Assembly (NCBI GenBank): GCA_017546585.1
Contig: JAFYWC010000048.1
Span: 1 to 38,386, forward strand
Reading direction: 5' to 3'
DNA from: Bacteroidales bacterium
GTDB taxonomy: Bacteria > Bacteroidota > Bacteroidia > Bacteroidales > UBA932
DNA: 38,386 nucleotides
Below are positions 18,950 through 26,694 of this stretch, one piece after another. The notes beneath the pieces are model-generated. The model ran no database searches and was not told the DNA's origin. It saw nothing but the letters and a program-made list of their open reading frames with translations. Every line of letters starts with the position of its first letter. Position 1 is the stretch's first letter. A program made the position numbers and the translations under genes.

Positions 18950-20617
18950 ATGAAGACAGATATTGAAATTGCAAGAAGCGTAGAAATGCGCAGAATCACT
19001 GAAATCGCTGATAGCATCGGTATTCCTGAGGAACAGATCGATCAGTATGGCCGTTATATGGCAAAGGTTTCAAGACAGCTTGTCGATGAGGAAAAGGTAG
19101 CCAAGAGCAAGCTTATCCTTGTTACAGCTATCACTGCAACAAAGGCCGGTATCGGTAAAACTACTGTTTCAGTGGGACTTGCACTCGGACTCAACAAAAT
19201 CGGCAAGAAGGCGATTGTTGCCCTTCGTGAGCCATCACTCGGACCTTGCTTCGGTCTGAAAGGCGGTGCTGCCGGCGGCGGATACGCTCAGGTGCTTCCT
19301 ATGGAGAAGATCAACCTTCATTTCACTGGAGACTTCCACGCAATCACGTCCGCACACAATATGATTTCTGCGCTGATGGACAACTACATCTATCAGCACC
19401 AGGCAGACGGATTCGCTCTCAAGGAAGTTATTTGGAAGCGAGTTCTCGACGTGAACGACCGTTCACTCAGAAACATTGTGACAGGACTCGGACCACGCAC
19501 AAACGGTCTTACTGCAGAATCAGGATTCGATATCACTCCTGCTTCAGAGCTTATGGCGATTCTTTGTCTTTCAAAGAATCTTGACGATATGAGAAGACGC
19601 ATCGATAACATCCTTCTCGGTTATACATTCGACGACAAGCCGTTTATGGTGAAGGATCTCGGCATTACCGGATCGATCCTCGTACTTCTCAAGACTGCTT
19701 TCAAGCCAAATCTTGTACAGACGACAGAGGGTACACCAGCGTTCATCCACGGTGGTCCTTTCGCAAACATCGCACACGGCTGCAACTCGATCATTGCAAC
19801 AAAGGTTGCTATGACCTTCGGAGATTATGTCATCACTGAGGCTGGTTTCGGAGCTGACCTCGGAGCGGAGAAGTTCTTTAACATCAAGTGCAGAAAGAGC
19901 GGCCTCAAGCCTGAACTTACAGTACTCGTAGCGACACTCAACGGTCTCAAGATGCACGGCGGCACAGCTCTCGAAGATATCCATAAGCCTGATGCAGAAG
20001 GCGTCAAGAGAGGTTTTGCTAATCTCGACAGACATATCAAGAACCTTCAGGACTTCGGTCAGTCAGTTGTGGTTTCATTCAATAAGTACGCATCAGACAC
20101 AGAGGAGGAGATCAACCTTGTCAAGGAGCATTGCGCAGAGCTCGGCGTACCGTTCGCTCTCAACAATGCTTGGGCAGAAGGCGGTGAGGGTGCAAAGGAA
20201 CTTGCTCAGCTCGTTGTAGATACAGTAGAGAACAATCCTTCAGGCCCGCTCAGGTTCACTTATTCGGATGATCAGAGCATTACAGAAAAGATCGAAACTA
20301 TCGCAAAGAATCTTTATAGAGCATCAAGTGTGACATATTCTGCTGTTGCAAGAAGGAAGATTACAGCGGCTGAGAAGATGGGATTCGGACACTTCCCTGT
20401 CTGCATCGCAAAGACACAGTACTCTTTCTCTCAGGATCCTAAGATGTACGGAGCGCCGGAGGGATTCCGCTTTGATATCAAGGATATCGTGATCAATACA
20501 GGTTCAGAGATGATCGTGGCAATCGCAGGTGACATCATCCGTATGCCAGGTCTTCCAAAGGTTCCTCAGGCTACAAAGATCGACATCATCAACGGAGTTA
20601 TCGAGGGTCTTAGCTAA
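18950..20617 (+). CDS. fhs: Formate-tetrahydrofolate ligase (10-formyl-THF synthetase)
   Basis: Catalyses formate + THF + ATP to 10-formyl-THF + ADP + Pi in one-carbon metabolism. The 555-residue length is normal. The P-loop is TKAGIGKTT (64-72), where many homologues have [30 protein letters not shown], the formate/THF-binding [10 protein letters not shown] and [12 protein letters not shown] are all clear. [14 protein letters not shown] and the C-terminal [12 protein letters not shown] complete the family pattern. Codon use looks strongly expressed, like other central-metabolism genes here. A truncated peptidase frame begins two bases after its stop. Confidence 0.96.
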
Positions 20618-20618
20618 T

Positions 20619-20834
20619 ATGACAATGAGAAAATTGACTTTTATTCTTATAGTGCTTGCCATTGTTTCCTGCCTGTATGAAACAGGTGAGATCAACCGTA
20701 GAGAACTGCTTAACCGTCAGTTGCTGCGAGAGATTATGACAGAAGCCGGGTGGCTTGTAGAACCTTCAGAGTGGTGGCATTTCAATGCAATGACACTGAC
20801 TGAGGCAAGTGAAAGACTGACAGTAATAAAATAG
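20619..20834 (+). pseudogene. Internally deleted M15-type peptidase remnant, or mini-lipoprotein
   Basis: A 71-codon frame directly behind fhs. It starts with a lipoprotein signal (MTMRKLTFILIVLAIVSC, Cys18) and then jumps straight to RQLLREIMTEAGWLVEP and EWWHFNAMTLTEAS. The latter is the extreme C-terminus of M15 D-Ala-D-Ala peptidases, where EWWH carries a catalytic Glu and the last zinc His. The roughly 130 or more residues that hold the S-x-H-x-x-G-x-A-x-D motif are missing. The frame is nevertheless intact, so it could be expressed as a small lipoprotein. An alternative ATG is at 20625. Most likely a decayed gene from an in-frame internal deletion. Confidence 0.55.
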
Positions 20835-20867
20835 ATAAGGTGGAGTGCTTAATACTCCACCTTATCT
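20833..20867. terminator. Bidirectional terminator overlapping two stop codons
   Basis: A perfect 14-bp stem AGATAAGGTGGAGT (20833-20846) / ACTCCACCTTATCT (20854-20867) with loop GCTTAAT. The rightward side is followed by TCTTTTTC and the leftward side by ATTTTATT. The stem includes part of the stop of the M15 remnant and the last codons of guaD. Confidence 0.8.
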
Positions 20868-21361
20868 TCTTTTTCTGCCCATTTCTTGAATGCACGGAGA
20901 GCATCGGAGCGCATAAAATGCTCACATTTGATCGAACGCTCTTCGTATTTGAGTTCAAGCTGGTCGTATATGAATGAATCATCAAAGTTGATTGCCTTTG
21001 CATCATCCTTGGTGCTTCCGTAACAGATCCTCTCTACCCCAGCCCAATATAGAGCACTTAGACACATCGGACAAGGCTCGCAAGAGCTGTACACTGTACA
21101 TCCTGTAAGCTCGAACGTGCCCAGTTTTGCGCAGGCATTTCTGATGGCCATTACCTCGGCGTGTGCCGTAGGGTCAGAATTTGGTACTACACGGTTAGCG
21201 CCAGTTGCAATGATTTCACCGTCGCGGACAATGACAGCTCCGAATGGACCGCCACCAGTGTCGATATTTTCTACAGACAGATTGATGGCAATTTCCATAA
21301 ATTTTGCGTCCTCTGCAGAATATACAGAGGTTTCCTTAAGGCATTTGTCAGAGTTGTCCAT
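20849..21361 (-). CDS. guaD: Guanine deaminase-like nucleoside/nucleobase deaminase (CDA fold)
   Basis: A 170-residue cytidine-deaminase-fold hydrolase. Zinc ligands and the proton shuttle are visible: PTAHAEV (His67, Glu69) and SSCEPCPMC (Cys97, Cys100). GGGPFGAVIVRDGEII, the FDDSFIYDQL segment and the C-terminal Tyr resemble B. subtilis GuaD, which converts guanine to xanthine, more than TadA. The TTG at 21370 is a poorer start than the ATG at 21361, which lies one base after the stop of the STAS gene. It is therefore the last gene of the ABC/partner-switch operon. Whether it belongs functionally is open. Confidence 0.82.
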   Translation of the reverse strand: MDNSDKCLKETSVYSAEDAKFMEIAINLSVENIDTGGGPFGAVIVRDGEIIATGANRVVPNSDPTAHAEVMAIRNACAKLGTFELTGCTVYSSCEPCPMCLSALYWAGVERICYGSTKDDAKAINFDDSFIYDQLELKYEERSIKCEHFMRSDALRAFKKWAEKEDKVEY

Positions 21362-21362
21362 A

Positions 21363-21662
21363 TTACTCAATTGTAAGGAGTCGAGAGAATCCTGTCATAT
21401 CAAACACGGATTTCACTTCGCTAGAAAGGTTTCTCACGATGAAACGGCCACCGCTGGCAGCGCACTGCTTATGTGTGGAAAGAACAACTCTCAGACCAGC
21501 TGAACTGATGTATTCCATTTTTTCGCAATTGAATATTACCGTACCTCCTACCTCGATCAACGGATTCACCGCTTTTTCAAGCTCAGGTGATGTTACTGTA
21601 TCAAGACGTCCATTGATGCATACGAGTTTTGCACCGTTTTCCTCTAAAACTATAATATCCAT
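21363..21662 (-). CDS. STAS-domain anti-sigma-factor antagonist (SpoIIAA/RsbV type)
   Basis: A 99-residue single STAS domain. NGRLDTVTSPELEKAV (17-32) and the phosphorylation loop YISSAGLRVV (51-60) are clear. By comparison with SpoIIAA, Ser54 is the residue phosphorylated by an RsbW-type kinase and dephosphorylated by a SpoIIE/RsbU phosphatase. The gene lies 30 bp downstream of a gene that encodes exactly such a phosphatase fused to a kinase domain, so a direct partner relation is very likely. No sigma factor is nearby, so the downstream target is unknown. Confidence 0.92.
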   Translation of the reverse strand: MDIIVLEENGAKLVCINGRLDTVTSPELEKAVNPLIEVGGTVIFNCEKMEYISSAGLRVVLSTHKQCAASGGRFIVRNLSSEVKSVFDMTGFSRLLTIE

Positions 21663-21692
21663 AGTAAATAAAGTTTTGTGTTTTATATGTTA

Positions 21693-24041
21693 TTAATCTA
21701 AAATCTTTACCATTGTGAGGACATTCTTATTGTCCACGCGACGATATGTCACTGTCTTCATAATCTTTCTGATAAGGAATATACCCAATCCTCCGATAGG
21801 TCTGTCTTCCAGGGAGAGTGTGACGTCAGCGTCAGGCTGGACTGTCGGATCAAACTCTTCACCTGAATCTATCAGCTTGAATATCAGTCTATCATCAATA
21901 TGTCGGACAGAAAGGGTGAAGTCGTGCTCCTCCCCCTTCGGATATGCATACATTATGACATTTGTCACTGCTTCCTCAATCGCAAGATTGATGTTGAATG
22001 CATTTTCCATTGATATGTTCAGTTCTTCGCAGATCTCTTCAAGGAATGCCGACATCCTGGTGATCTCTTCCACTTTATTCTTCAGCACGATCTGACGGCA
22101 GTTCGCGTCATCAAGCTGGTCGCTCAATTTGAAGCACAATATTGTAATGTCATCGCTCTGCTCTGCACCGTTGGAATATATTTCAACGTCATTGAGGACG
22201 TTTTCGGTGATTGTGCGCGGCGGCATCATTTCCTGCTTCTGGAGCAGTTCCACAAGGCGGTCTTCTCCATACAAGTCTTTTTCCGGGTTATGTGCTTCTG
22301 AAATACCGTCTGTATAGAGGAAGAATGACGATCCTCTGTCAATATGATAGGTATCTCCGGTATATGCGAATCCGTGCCATACACCCATAGCAAGGTTCTG
22401 GTTTACTTTAAGAACTTCAGCCTCTCCCTCAGGCTTGATAATTACAGGAGGATTGTGACCTGCGTTACAGTACTCCATAAGACCTGTCTTGAGATCCAGG
22501 ATTCCTACGAATGCTGTACAGAACATATTTGACTCATTAGACTCGGAAAGCGCATTGTTGAGCGTTGTCATAATGCCTTCAGGAGTCTTTACGTATGAAG
22601 CTACCGTTCTGAAGAGACGACAAGTCACGGCCATAACCAATGAAGCAGGAACACCTTTGCCTGATACGTCACCGATTATGAAATACAGTTTTTCGTTTTC
22701 AATGAAGAAATCATAAAGGTCACCGCCGACCTCTCTTGCAGGAATTACCCTTGCGAACAGATCCACATCTTCTCGCTCAGGGAATGGAGGGAACACTTTC
22801 GGAACCATTCCAAGCTGAAGCGCTCTGGCGATGCGCAGCTCACTCTCGATTCTCTCTTTATTGGCTGTAGTCGACTTCAGGTCATCGATATATTTCACAA
22901 GTGAATGCTGGAGATGTTCAAATGAGTCGTGCAGTTCCTTGAGCTCGTCATTTGAATGTATCTTAGGGAGTTCCGTATTGAACTCGCCATCGGCGATCTT
23001 CTTTGCCACATCCGAAAACTCTTCCACCGGAGCAACTACGACTCGTATTCCGTTATAGCTAAGGTACATCATAAGAAGCAACGAAATGAGTCCGATGATA
23101 ATCAAAATCGCTCTCATCTTTTTCACTCCTTGATAGAGTTCACTTCTCGGACATACGATGGCTACTGACCAACAGGTGGTTTCTACAGGCGAATAGAACA
23201 CGAAGAATTTTCCGCCGTCCTTGTCTCTGAGGACTTCTCCTGCACGGCAGTTCACCATATCGTCCTTCAGTTTCACCAACGATTCGTCGTCGTCCCCATA
23301 GGTAGATGAGAAGATTGTCTCATTGAGGATGAGGTTTCTGTCAGGATGCACAATGTACGATGCGTTTCTGCTGACCATCAGATTATAAGCGCGGTCGAAG
23401 GCCTTGATGTTGCCGACAAGTTCTGTAAGCCAGTCCAATGACAAGTCTGCAGTTATTATCGCATAGAGGTTGCCGGATTCGTCGTACAAAGGTTTAGAAT
23501 AGGTGGTCATCATCATTTCTCCACCTCCGTCGTCGTAATAAGGTTCGCTCCAATATGGCTCGTTCAGAAGTTTAGGAATCTGATACCAATCCATATAGTG
23601 GTAGTCGTAGTTGTCGTGTCCAAGCTGCTTGGACTTTATTTCACCGCTTTCAGTTCTGTAAGAGTATGGTGAAAAAAACTGTCCTTCTGAAGCATAGTAA
23701 TAAGGTTCGAAGGCTACAGCAGCACCGCATATGAAGTCGTTGTTCTGAAGAATTCTCTCAGTAATGTAATACATAAAGTCTGGAGAACTCATACGATACG
23801 GAACTAGCCAGGCAGTGTTTTCCACTGCTGTCTCAACGGCATTCAGCACAGCATCAATCTGATGGATGGTGTTTGAGAGCTCGCTGTGTGCGTGCCTTGT
23901 CGCCTCTTCTCTCACCTTGTTTGCTGCCATTCTGATGAATACTGTACAAGTCAATGTAAATATGATGGCAGATACGATGATCACTCCTAAGGTAAGTCGT
24001 CCCGAGATGGAGCTCTTCAGTTTGCGTTCCCTTCTTTTCAT
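21693..24041 (-). CDS. Membrane sensor: dCache - HAMP - SpoIIE phosphatase - RsbW-like HATPase
   Basis: A 782-residue signalling protein. TM1 is at about 15-37 and TM2 at about 309-328; between them lies a periplasmic dCache-type domain, with the MDWYQIP and WSEPYYDDGGGEMMMTTYS segments typical of Cache_1. HAMP spans about 330-383 and a short coiled linker follows. The PP2C/SpoIIE domain (405-640) keeps metal aspartates Asp441 (GGDLYDF), Asp458 (GDVSGKG), Asp578 (TDGISEA) and Asp630/631. A HATPase domain (650-780) has an N box LAIEEAVTNV with Asn694, G1 DSGEEFDP and G2 GGLGIFL, all intact. It should both phosphorylate and dephosphorylate a STAS partner under control of an external ligand. Its start overlaps the binding-protein stop by 4 bp (ATGA). 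Confidence 0.93.
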   Translation of the reverse strand: MKRRERKLKSSISGRLTLGVIIVSAIIFTLTCTVFIRMAANKVREEATRHAHSELSNTIHQIDAVLNAVETAVENTAWLVPYRMSSPDFMYYITERILQNNDFICGAAVAFEPYYYASEGQFFSPYSYRTESGEIKSKQLGHDNYDYHYMDWYQIPKLLNEPYWSEPYYDDGGGEMMMTTYSKPLYDESGNLYAIITADLSLDWLTELVGNIKAFDRAYNLMVSRNASYIVHPDRNLILNETIFSSTYGDDDESLVKLKDDMVNCRAGEVLRDKDGGKFFVFYSPVETTCWSVAIVCPRSELYQGVKKMRAILIIIGLISLLLMMYLSYNGIRVVVAPVEEFSDVAKKIADGEFNTELPKIHSNDELKELHDSFEHLQHSLVKYIDDLKSTTANKERIESELRIARALQLGMVPKVFPPFPEREDVDLFARVIPAREVGGDLYDFFIENEKLYFIIGDVSGKGVPASLVMAVTCRLFRTVASYVKTPEGIMTTLNNALSESNESNMFCTAFVGILDLKTGLMEYCNAGHNPPVIIKPEGEAEVLKVNQNLAMGVWHGFAYTGDTYHIDRGSSFFLYTDGISEAHNPEKDLYGEDRLVELLQKQEMMPPRTITENVLNDVEIYSNGAEQSDDITILCFKLSDQLDDANCRQIVLKNKVEEITRMSAFLEEICEELNISMENAFNINLAIEEAVTNVIMYAYPKGEEHDFTLSVRHIDDRLIFKLIDSGEEFDPTVQPDADVTLSLEDRPIGGLGIFLIRKIMKTVTYRRVDNKNVLTMVKILD

Positions 24042-24982
24042 AGCTGCTCACCTATAAATTTTTCATATACGATCGACTTTGAAATATAACCATATTTCTT
24101 GAGTGCTTCGTTCAACTGATTGAAGGCATCTTCGTTCAATCTGTATGTAGGCAATTCCCCCTTTATATCTTCCTGGGCCTGAAGCAATGCCTCCAGCATC
24201 CACTTCTGATTATATTTGTTTGTAGTGACATTCTCCTTCTTGACATATTTCATAATGATGTCAAGTGCTTTGTCCGGGTTGTTTCTTACCCAATCCCATC
24301 CTTTGCGTGAAGCTTCAGCGAACAGTCGGCACTGCTCCTTATGCTTCTTGTAGTAGTCTTCAGTTACATATAGACCGTCTTCAGGGAAGTCGTAGCCGTG
24401 CTCAGAAAAATAGAGGACGCTTCCCGGAGTGATGCCAGACATAGAGAACGCTATAAGTTCATTGTATGTCTTTGCCAATGTCGCATCGATAGCTCCTGCA
24501 ATGTATGGGTTGAGCGGATTCATCAGTTTGATCCACTCGATGTCGAGATTCTGTTCTTCATCGATCATATGCGGAATTTCGCTGAAGCCTACTTTCCACG
24601 ATCCTACTCTGCATCCTGCAACATCTGCAAGCTGTCTGACATTCTCTGCTCGTGATATCAATACCAAAGTGGAATGCTGTGTGGTCTGGAGAATATTTAC
24701 AAGCTCAACCTCAGCGTCTGAAGTCATCATAGCCTGGATGAGTTCACAGGTAATGATGTCGGCCTTGCAGTCCTTAAGCATATCTATTGAACTGTATGAA
24801 ACCGTAGGGTGCTGGATGCACACATCAAGTCCAAGTTCTTTGTAGTATCCATTCTCGAGTGCTGCATAGTACCCTGCAAACTGGGCTTGCGCAGTCCATT
24901 GCGGCGCAAAAACGACCTGCTGAGCCTTGACGGAAAGACTCAGCAACAGCATCGAGATGATTATTCTCAGCTTTGATTTCAT
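24038..24982 (-). CDS. NMT1/THI5-like ABC substrate-binding protein
   Basis: A 314-residue secreted protein with a Sec signal (MKSKLRIIISMLLLSLSVKA) and no lipobox, so probably free in the periplasm. The mature start VVFAPQWTAQAQFAGYYAAL and ENGYYKELGLDV are the classical NMT1/THI5-like signature, whose members bind thiamine-pyrimidine precursors, riboflavin, nitrate/sulfonate-like or other small ligands. Other family-like stretches are CRVGSWKVGF, YNELIAFSMSG and GWDWVRNNPDKALDI. Ligand cannot be assigned. It lies between the ABC ATPase (10 bp) and the sensor phosphatase (4-bp overlap), so it may serve both transport and sensing. Confidence 0.88.
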   Translation of the reverse strand: MKSKLRIIISMLLLSLSVKAQQVVFAPQWTAQAQFAGYYAALENGYYKELGLDVCIQHPTVSYSSIDMLKDCKADIITCELIQAMMTSDAEVELVNILQTTQHSTLVLISRAENVRQLADVAGCRVGSWKVGFSEIPHMIDEEQNLDIEWIKLMNPLNPYIAGAIDATLAKTYNELIAFSMSGITPGSVLYFSEHGYDFPEDGLYVTEDYYKKHKEQCRLFAEASRKGWDWVRNNPDKALDIIMKYVKKENVTTNKYNQKWMLEALLQAQEDIKGELPTYRLNEDAFNQLNEALKKYGYISKSIVYEKFIGEQL

Positions 24983-24992
24983 CTGTATGATA

Positions 24993-26051
24993 TTATTTCA
25001 ACAAACTTTCTTTATTCAATTCCATATGAAGAACTCTCTGATCTCCGATTACCCTCTCCTCGAGCACATCGCATAGTCCGAGGAGGAGGCTGAGGCTTAG
25101 GTCATCTTTACAGGTGGACTCGTCAATATATGAAACACCTGTGTTTTCTGCACTGATATCCAATGTCATACGCACTTCGTGCTCGGCCTTTGATAAAATC
25201 AGCTTTACACCTTTATCAAGAGGTATGAGATTGAGGGCTTCTTCGACTGCAAGCTGGGTGAAGTGGAATGCCTGGCTGCCCAGTCCATAGCGATTGCAGT
25301 AGTTTTCAATACGTGAATTCAGCTCAGGACGGTCAAAGTCGGATGATTTGATCTTGTAGTGAAGGTCTTTCTTGTGACTCAGATAGTGTTTGGTCGCTTC
25401 CTTTGTAGGGTGACCGATGACCTCATCCACTGTACCTTCCTCGCATAACTGTCCTTTATCCAGGAAGACTACCCTGTCTGCAAGTTCAACCACAGCCTCA
25501 AGCTTATGTGAGACCATAATAAGCGTCTTTTCCTTCTTCAGCTTACGCAAGACATCCATAACCTCACCGGTAGCTATCGGGTCCAATGCCGAAAGCGGCT
25601 CGTCAAGAAGTATTATCTGTGGATTCATCACAAGACAACGTGCGATTGCAACACGCTGCTGCTGTCCGATCGACAGTTCGCGAGGGAATTTATGGCTTCT
25701 GTGTGCAAGACCTACTGCTCTAAGATGCTCCATAGCCAGTTCTTTAGCCTCAGATGCCGGCATTCCAAGCACCTTCATAGGTGCGAGTGTAAGATTCTGA
25801 AGAACATTGAGATGTGGGAAAAGATTGAAGTGCTGCGGAATCATACCTATGCGCGGCACCTCACCTGAAGGAAATAGGATTTCGCCTGAATCAGGCTGTA
25901 CAAGACCGTGAATGCATCTCAGCAATGTACTCTTTCCGCAGCCGATTGTACCGATGATACATACCATCTCCTTGTCCTTGAACGTAAGTGAAAGGTTGTC
26001 AAGAATCTGATTGCCTTCGATGGATTTGCATATTTGTCTAAGCTCAATCAT
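24993..26051 (-). CDS. ABC importer ATPase with C-terminal degenerate HATPase-like extension
   Basis: A 352-residue protein. Residues 1-225 form a polar-amino-acid-type ABC ATPase with Walker A GTIGCGKST (34-42), Q-loop Gln73, signature LSIGQ (126-130; Ile replaces the usual Gly), Walker B IILLDE (146-151) and H-switch His182. Residues of about 240-352 are extra. RIENYCNRYGLG and FTQLAVEEALNLI resemble the helix pair and N box of RsbW/SpoIIAB kinases, followed by strand-like KLILSKAEHEVRMTLDI and a final helix-strand pair. The N-box Asn and the G1/G2 glycines appear absent, so it should not bind ATP canonically. Start overlaps the permease stop by 8 bp. The HATPase call is from pattern and context, not a search. 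Confidence 0.85.
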   Translation of the reverse strand: MIELRQICKSIEGNQILDNLSLTFKDKEMVCIIGTIGCGKSTLLRCIHGLVQPDSGEILFPSGEVPRIGMIPQHFNLFPHLNVLQNLTLAPMKVLGMPASEAKELAMEHLRAVGLAHRSHKFPRELSIGQQQRVAIARCLVMNPQIILLDEPLSALDPIATGEVMDVLRKLKKEKTLIMVSHKLEAVVELADRVVFLDKGQLCEEGTVDEVIGHPTKEATKHYLSHKKDLHYKIKSSDFDRPELNSRIENYCNRYGLGSQAFHFTQLAVEEALNLIPLDKGVKLILSKAEHEVRMTLDISAENTGVSYIDESTCKDDLSLSLLLGLCDVLEERVIGDQRVLHMELNKESLLK

Positions 26052-26694
26052 ATCTGAACATTTTTACGTAAAGGAAGTTCACGAATTTAGTAATGCCCCA
26101 GGCAAGTATCAGATAAAGGATTGTGACAATTATCAGAGGCAATAATGTGTCGTTGTGCTGTTCGCGAATTATATCGACAACCTTCATCATATCTTTCTGG
26201 GCGATATAGCCTGCGAAAGATGTGTTTTGAATCAATGCTCGGAGTTCTCCTGCGAAGAAAGGAAGCATCGATTTGAATGCCTGAGGAAAGACTATGTGTC
26301 TGTAGCACTGTGCTTTTGTCAGTCCCAAAGACAGACCTGCCTCTATCTGGCCTTTGTCAACATCACCGATGTGCACAGAGAAGACATCCACCATATTGTT
26401 GGACGTGTAGATTCCAAGGGCTATGATTGAAACGATGATGCCATTCATTTCTCCTACGAAGACCACATAGTAGAAGAACATCATAAATGCGATGGCAGGA
26501 ACTTCGTGAATGGTTGAAACAAACCATTCGAGAGGGTTATATAGCCAAGGCCATTTGCCGCTGAGTCTCAGATATGACATTCCTGCGCCTAGGATGATGG
26601 CGATAATTGCTGCAAACACGAATATCACTATCGTTGTTTGCAGACCACCAAGGATAAGCATCCACATATCGCGGGAAAAGAGTAAATCTCTCAT
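26044..26694 (-). CDS. ABC transporter permease (polar amino-acid / HisM-like type)
   Basis: A 216-residue inner-membrane protein with about five hydrophobic segments. GLQTTIVIFVFAAIIAIILG is typical of the His/Glu/Gln permease family, and EAGLSLGLTKAQCYRHIVFPQAF is a well-formed EAA loop that contacts the ATPase. A TTG extends the frame by sixteen codons across the promoter; the ATG at 26694 is the natural start. First gene of the leftward six-gene unit. The family usually works with type II amino-acid binding proteins, whereas the binding protein here is NMT1-like. Confidence 0.88.
   Translation of the reverse strand: MRDLLFSRDMWMLILGGLQTTIVIFVFAAIIAIILGAGMSYLRLSGKWPWLYNPLEWFVSTIHEVPAIAFMMFFYYVVFVGEMNGIIVSIIALGIYTSNNMVDVFSVHIGDVDKGQIEAGLSLGLTKAQCYRHIVFPQAFKSMLPFFAGELRALIQNTSFAGYIAQKDMMKVVDIIREQHNDTLLPLIIVTILYLILAWGITKFVNFLYVKMFRYD

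Follow-up and report, generated by a model that had tools for sequence, protein, structure and literature searches.

We analyzed a 38,386-nucleotide stretch of Bacteroidales DNA (GTDB lineage UBA932; assembly GCA_017546585.1, contig JAFYWC010000048.1), hereafter the window, and found that an ATP-binding cassette (ABC) importer operon on its minus strand (20849-26694) encodes an ABC ATPase whose C-terminal extension is, by profile and fold comparison, an RsbW/SpoIIAB-like pseudokinase domain. With a probability of about 0.7, the sequence data point to a partner switch that has the importer as its output and acts through docking of a STAS protein on the ABC ATPase. The switch probably controls the importer rather than a sigma factor, because the ATPase bears a dead copy of the docking domain through which such phosphorylation switches usually govern gene expression, and the rest of the switch is encoded beside it.

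The operon comprises six genes, encoding in order a permease, the ATPase, a periplasmic binding protein, a membrane sensor, the STAS protein and a deaminase. The permease and ATPase genes overlap by 8 bp and the binding protein and sensor genes by 4 bp; the remaining neighbors are separated by 10 bp (ATPase to binding protein), 30 bp (sensor to STAS) and 1 bp (STAS to deaminase). The initial annotation of this DNA, made from the sequence alone, had given the place, strand, overlaps and gaps of all six genes, which were exact when checked against the open reading frames (ORFs), and had reported the absence of a sigma factor, which agrees with the Pfam matches of the six products. Its statement that the ABC ATPase is the only other intracellular product was wrong, as the deaminase is intracellular too. 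It had also proposed a transporter gated by, or reported through, STAS phosphorylation, and this idea is now supported by the pseudokinase on the ATPase, which has the RsbW fold to which STAS antagonists bind, by the recurrent linkage described below and by genome searches that gave no other HATPase_c_2 domain and no SigB/F/G-type target over cut-off. The C-terminal domain of the ATPase, named there solely as an item for checking, is the decisive part, and this was missed.

This domain occupies the last ~125 residues of the ATPase (24993-25373, minus strand) and is a degenerate HATPase_c_2 domain according to hhalign and to an AlphaFold model compared by Foldseek and VIA. The extension alone gave no Pfam match at E ≤ 5, and the fusion of an ABC ATPase to this domain was not marked by Pfam. 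Comparing the extension with the window sensor by BLASTP found no significant match, a PDB search with the single extension sequence found none, and the A3 profile gave only chance-level matches against the PDB. When the extension was aligned by hhalign with the HATPases of these loci, the probability was 98.8 (E 8.3e-17), compared to ≤0.8 for seven control profiles. The extension was modeled with a predicted local distance difference test score (pLDDT) of 92.6 and has a Bergerat-type fold, and all 18 Foldseek matches to this model at E ≤ 0.001 were UsfX, RsbW and SpoIIAB complexes, with VIA matches alike. The homology is visible only by profile-profile and fold comparison.

A joint alignment of 125 extensions showed that the G1 Asp is retained in none (71 have Ser) and the GG likewise in none, that ~10 residues of the ATP lid are deleted in all 125, and that the N-box Asn is lost in 123, the window among them, while both Glu preceding the N box remain in 116. 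Because these ATP-binding residues (N-box Asn, G1 Asp and glycine-rich lid) are lost, the extension is classed as a pseudokinase, and we propose it as a putative STAS docking site. The counts for extensions, STAS proteins and SpoIIE domains partly hold the same gene from two collections, so that 108 of 125, 72 of 79 and 74 of 81 sequences, respectively, are distinct.

The other components of the switch retain their motifs. The 782-aa membrane sensor (21693-24041, minus strand) has the Pfam architecture MCP-like_PDC_1/dCache_1-HAMP-SpoIIE-HATPase_c_2, with scores of 166 bits for SpoIIE and 87.7 bits for HATPase_c_2. All six metal-binding Asp columns are Asp in 81/81 SpoIIE domains, and the N-box Asn, G1 Asp and GGxG of the G2 box are kept in 38/38 HATPases of these loci, the window included in both cases. 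The stand-alone STAS protein (99 aa; 21363-21662, minus strand) contains the motif YISSAGL, matches Pfam STAS and scores above cut-off with the NCBIfam model ant_ant_sig. Its Ser54 column is Ser in 79/79 small STAS proteins, again with the window among them, and Ser54 is the candidate phospho-acceptor. Residue columns across related loci thus bear out the earlier view, by sequence, that the phosphatase, HATPase and Ser54 motifs are intact.

Searches of the window genome, an assembly that is 95.6% complete, returned one SpoIIE match and one HATPase_c_2 match, both in the sensor of this operon, and a single match to the ATPase extension. There were two STAS matches, the 99-aa protein of the operon and one in a 570-aa ORF. 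No SigB/F/G-type sigma factor was found over cut-off, and the one match below it lies in a 286-aa ORF, the size of a housekeeping sigma factor. Besides the sensor's own kinase, the ABC ATPase is the only RsbW-fold partner found for the STAS protein in this genome.

The extension was matched in 10 of 149 genomes of the family, 19 of 295 of the order, 43 of 395 of the phylum and 30 of 300 of the genus, with the window genome included each time. The G199 match in the order set and one G509 match in the phylum set are real HATPases and not ATPase extensions, and the G199 row (L091) was dropped. Neighborhoods were then compared in three sets: 48 from the family, order and phylum searches (all 11 family and 20 of 47 phylum places outside the window, and all 18 new order places, minus L091), 20 of the 31 same-genus places, and 78 loci from named genomes (the best 80 of 97, minus L208 and L220, which have no called ATPase). 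The named-genome loci are found in Chlorobiaceae, Ignavibacteria, Geobacter/Trichlorobacter, Methylobacter/Methylovulum, Nitrosomonas communis, Nitrotoga, Rhodocyclus, Gemmatimonadota, Kuenenia, Bacillota and Bacteroidales, and 39/78 have at least one of SpoIIE, STAS and HATPase nearby, 30/78 at least two. The initial annotation had named, as grounds for an accidental linkage, homologous ABC genes standing without sensor and STAS genes in nearly all relatives; instead, switch genes lie in the same gene run in 35/78 named-genome loci, 14/48 neighborhoods and 9/20 same-genus neighborhoods, including three of the four nearest relatives.

The linkage between pseudokinase ATPase and SpoIIE exceeds chance. 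A SpoIIE gene lies within 10 kb of the ATPase gene in 13 of 42 loci, window included, whereas 0.69 would be expected given the numbers of genes and the sizes of the genomes; the estimate is based on 37 hand-picked genomes out of 69 with matches and on a hand count of linked loci in which G342 (~9 kb) was taken as linked. Genome-level co-occurrence was not used as proof because 221/295 order genomes have SpoIIE. The same association is seen repeatedly, in different phyla and with different gene orders. The window order is permease-ATPase-binding protein-sensor-STAS, and other loci have permease-ATPase-STAS-binding protein-sensor-HATPase (L255, L257), HATPase-STAS-permease-ATPase (L264, L265, L270), binding protein-sensor-HATPase-STAS-permease-ATPase (L015, L019) or binding protein-sensor-permease-ATPase-STAS-HATPase (L151, L160, L193, and L196 with a divergent HATPase). 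Several genomes without local linkage carry all or most of a binding protein-sensor-HATPase-STAS set elsewhere (L112-L120).

Co-divergence was measured over 31 non-redundant linked loci as the partial correlation of extension distances with those of each partner after removing distances of the nucleotide-binding domain (NBD), and it counts as support, not proof, because the permutation ignores relatedness. The extension tracked STAS (partial r 0.55, 0/2000 permutations), SpoIIE (0.58) and the NMT1-type binding protein (0.49), whereas over all 31 loci the permease tracked the NBD (0.90) but showed no such relation to the extension (0.09, p 0.24). Among the 11 Bacteroidales loci the values were 0.73 for STAS and 0.77 for HATPase, and among the 20 non-Bacteroidales loci they were 0.87 for SpoIIE and -0.12 for HATPase.

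Taken as a mechanism, a ligand outside the cytoplasm would be sensed by the NMT1-type binding protein, the PDC domain or both, the SpoIIE domain of the sensor would dephosphorylate the STAS protein, and the HATPase domain would rephosphorylate it at Ser54. Unphosphorylated STAS would dock on the RsbW-fold pseudokinase domain and alter transport activity, and phosphorylation by the sensor HATPase would release it, as phospho-STAS would not dock. Inhibition of transport by STAS, rather than activation, is slightly favored because the domain persists in some genomes that lack small STAS proteins altogether.

Several observations weigh against control of the importer by STAS docking. Switch genes are missing from the same run in 43/78 named-genome, 34/48 and 11/20 same-genus loci, and the switch module was seen as well in neighborhoods that yielded no pseudokinase ATPase. 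Three of 37 pseudokinase genomes (G584, G713, G471) have no SpoIIE match and G640 has only a partial one, and the STAS matches of these four are all in ORFs of at least 200 aa. The ATP lid, deleted in the extensions, belongs to the STAS contact in SpoIIAB, and its loss may alter or abolish STAS binding. Two of the 125 extensions (L088, L090) carry Asn in the N-box column. With regard to co-divergence, the extension tracks HATPase little over all loci (0.15, p 0.05) and STAS weakly in the non-Bacteroidales loci (0.32, p 0.087), SpoIIE and the binding protein co-diverge with it as strongly as STAS does, and the permease also tracks it to some degree in each subset (0.45, p 0.0015; 0.41, p 0.022).

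In an alternative that we consider unlikely, the domain descends from an anti-sigma kinase, no longer binds STAS and has a structural or ligand-binding role within the ATPase, such as NBD dimerization. Sensor and STAS genes would then share the operon because sensing and import concern one and the same nutrient, and STAS would have another target. HATPase_c_2 proteins do dimerize, the domain is retained in genomes that lack both SpoIIE and a small STAS protein, and the 34 unlinked loci out of 48 fit as well. However, the linkage recurs in different gene orders and lineages, the domain co-diverges with STAS and SpoIIE beyond the NBD over the 31 linked loci, the window genome when searched yielded neither a further HATPase_c_2 nor a SigB/F/G-type sigma factor above cut-off, and unlinked sensor modules were found in other ATPase-carrying genomes.

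Reversed signal flow is a good deal less probable. Here the importer would do the sensing: the pseudokinase domain would respond to importer occupancy by binding or releasing STAS or the kinase, and the switch would report transport to another output. It would use the same parts with the same linkage, and ABC-coupled flux sensing occurs in other systems such as BceAB-BceS, but a periplasmic PDC domain is part of the sensor itself, the binding protein gene stands directly upstream of the sensor gene in most cases, and no second output of recognizable type was found in the window genome searches. Least probable is an ordinary Rsb-type switch acting on an unrecognized sigma factor or regulator elsewhere with the ABC genes as chance neighbors, for although the classical Rsb parts are all present and intact, 13/42 linked loci stand against 0.69 expected, the ATPase itself has the RsbW-fold domain, and the sole SigB/F/G-type match is the 286-aa ORF below cut-off.

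Control of the importer through STAS docking could also be one case of a wider scheme, which we put forward tentatively and as falling short of an even chance. Partner switching would then be a general form of transporter control, with one sensor module (binding protein-PDC/SpoIIE-HATPase-STAS) re-used across phyla and gating exerted post-translationally via the transporter's own RsbW-fold or STAS domain. Its targets would be polar amino-acid importers, by way of the pseudokinase fused to their NBD, another type of ABC importer, by way of a subunit fused to STAS, and perhaps an SLC13-like carrier.

The importer itself consists of a GlnP/EhuD-type permease (216 aa; 26044-26694, minus strand), which matches Pfam BPD_transp_1 and has ehuD as its best NCBIfam match, below cut-off, and the 352-aa ATPase (24993-26051, minus strand), which matches Pfam ABC_tran and is GlnQ/EhuA-like by NCBIfam, also below cut-off. 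Residues 1-225 of the ATPase are a GlnQ-type NBD in which Walker A (GTIGCGKST), the signature (LSIGQ) and Walker B (IILLDEP) were identified by eye, and the full-length model has a pLDDT of 91.5 and a predicted template modeling score of 0.72. In a 40-row alignment the signature consensus is LSGGQ, and the window ATPase largely lacks a ~10-residue stretch (IDGxDILDxKTDV) that its relatives have. Some loci encode one-polypeptide importers, in which permease, SBP_bac_3-like domain(s), NBD and pseudokinase domain are joined in ~900-1140 aa (L013:1053-4466, the only one scanned with Pfam, L017:4945-7644, L086, L262 and L273).

The binding protein (24038-24982, minus strand) is of the NMT1/THI5 type by Pfam (NMT1), has a signal-peptide-like start, and has as PDB relatives 4nmy and the formyl-aminopyrimidine-binding protein 3ix1. 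Of the 70 sensor (PDC) genes in loci annotated at that point, 50 have an NMT1-type gene immediately upstream, including some in loci where no transporter was found near, which makes it doubtful that the protein belongs to the importer alone. By this gene arrangement it is probably the sensor's ligand-binding partner too, and it may deliver substrate as well in the window, whose genome gave no match to SBP_bac_3 (PF00497).

The last gene (20849-21361, minus strand) encodes a cytidine-deaminase-superfamily enzyme (Pfam dCMP_cyt_deam_1) nearest to guanine deaminases, with 1wkq (E 6e-44) and 1tiy (E 9e-44) as best PDB matches. We rejected the deaminase as part of the switch because it was found in 0/20 same-genus neighborhoods, and it is probably a passenger. 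A nucleobase-like substrate is possible because an NMT1 relative binds a pyrimidine precursor and the deaminase is nearest guanine deaminase, an argument limited by the lack of conservation of the deaminase with the operon. A terminator-like hairpin (20833-20867, minus strand; stem of 14-15 bp with T-rich tails on both strands) closes the unit at 20867-20833, overlapping the end of the deaminase gene; it is a consensus match only, from a scan that found 6 hairpins compared to 4.3 in shuffled sequence and found none in the intergenic gaps of the operon. Beyond the deaminase, a short plus-strand ORF (20529-20834), possibly a gene remnant, contains WLVEPSEWWHF, which resembles a motif of VanX/DdpX-type dipeptidases.

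Other neighbors of the sensor module were also seen. The sensor/STAS module, or a SpoIIE gene alone, adjoins an apparent second ABC importer type in L133 (4816-13457), L135, L116, L120-L123 and L128. In L133, the only one of these scanned with Pfam, the genes encode an ABC_sub_bind protein, a BPD_transp_2 permease, an NBD and a protein of 412 aa that starts with a STAS domain and has 300 further residues of unassigned type. L131 (8009-9799) has the run sensor-HATPase-transporter-STAS, with a 596-aa transporter that by eye we presume to be of SLC13/TrkA-C type. A small class III nucleotide cyclase gene (Guanylate_cyc), perhaps another output, follows the STAS gene of the module in L132 (7362-8009) and L138 (3787-4434), and a second HATPase_c_2 protein of ~505 aa, with a C-terminal part unmatched in the scanned L138, is encoded between the kinase and STAS genes in L138 (5513-7027) and L139 (4070-5605).

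Partner switches are textbook regulators of sigma factors. Like the Rsb and SpoIIA systems (RsbU-RsbV-RsbW-SigB; SpoIIE-SpoIIAA-SpoIIAB-SigF), the window operon has an intact SpoIIE-type phosphatase, HATPase_c_2 kinase and STAS protein with a phospho-acceptor Ser. Unlike them, it combines phosphatase and kinase in one membrane sensor and has no sigma factor, and we propose that the role of the anti-sigma factor falls to the dead kinase-domain copy fused to the ABC ATPase. The SiaABCD switch of Pseudomonas (SiaB kinase-SiaC) ends on a non-sigma output, a diguanylate cyclase, and resembles the window in its SpoIIE-type sensor; the NCBIfam SiaA model matches the window sensor far below cut-off, and SiaB kinase is among the Foldseek and VIA fold matches of the ATPase extension. 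The window differs from it in having an ABC transporter and the pseudokinase fusion. Polar amino-acid importers (GlnPQ, EhuCDA) are the nearest models for the NBD and permease, below equivalog cut-offs, and relatives of the window importer have SBP_bac_3-like domains fused to the permease, whereas the window importer has the pseudokinase extension and an NMT1-type instead of an SBP_bac_3 binding protein.

A literature search, mostly without subscription journals and preprints, found no description of an ABC ATPase with an RsbW-like domain or of an importer under partner switching, and the term "ABC transporter" does not occur in the accessible part of a STAS-only review (PMC8256260). The closest comparison is MlaFEDB, in which, according to PMC7367683, the STAS protein MlaB is bound to the ABC ATPase MlaF, and a phosphomimetic at the MlaB Ser/Thr site weakened this association, the authors leaving phospho-regulation open. 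The window likewise encodes a small STAS protein with an ABC ATPase. None of its six products is an MCE protein or MlaE-type permease by Pfam, in searches that covered the operon and not the genome, and importer type and partners differ. As described there, MlaB contacts the NBD and a ~25-aa extension, whereas the window ATPase has a ~125-aa RsbW-fold domain and a kinase and phosphatase are encoded alongside. Kinase, phosphatase, STAS and pseudokinase-tagged ATPase are also encoded together in Nitrosomonas communis Nm44 (L196), Methylobacter tundripaludum (L186), Methylobacter marinus A45 (L195) and Methylovulum miyakonense HT12 (L209), and control of an ABC transporter by STAS phosphorylation is therefore directly testable. 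Such systems bear on the question that the MlaFB paper (PMC7367683) leaves open, namely STAS regulation of an ABC transporter via phosphorylation.

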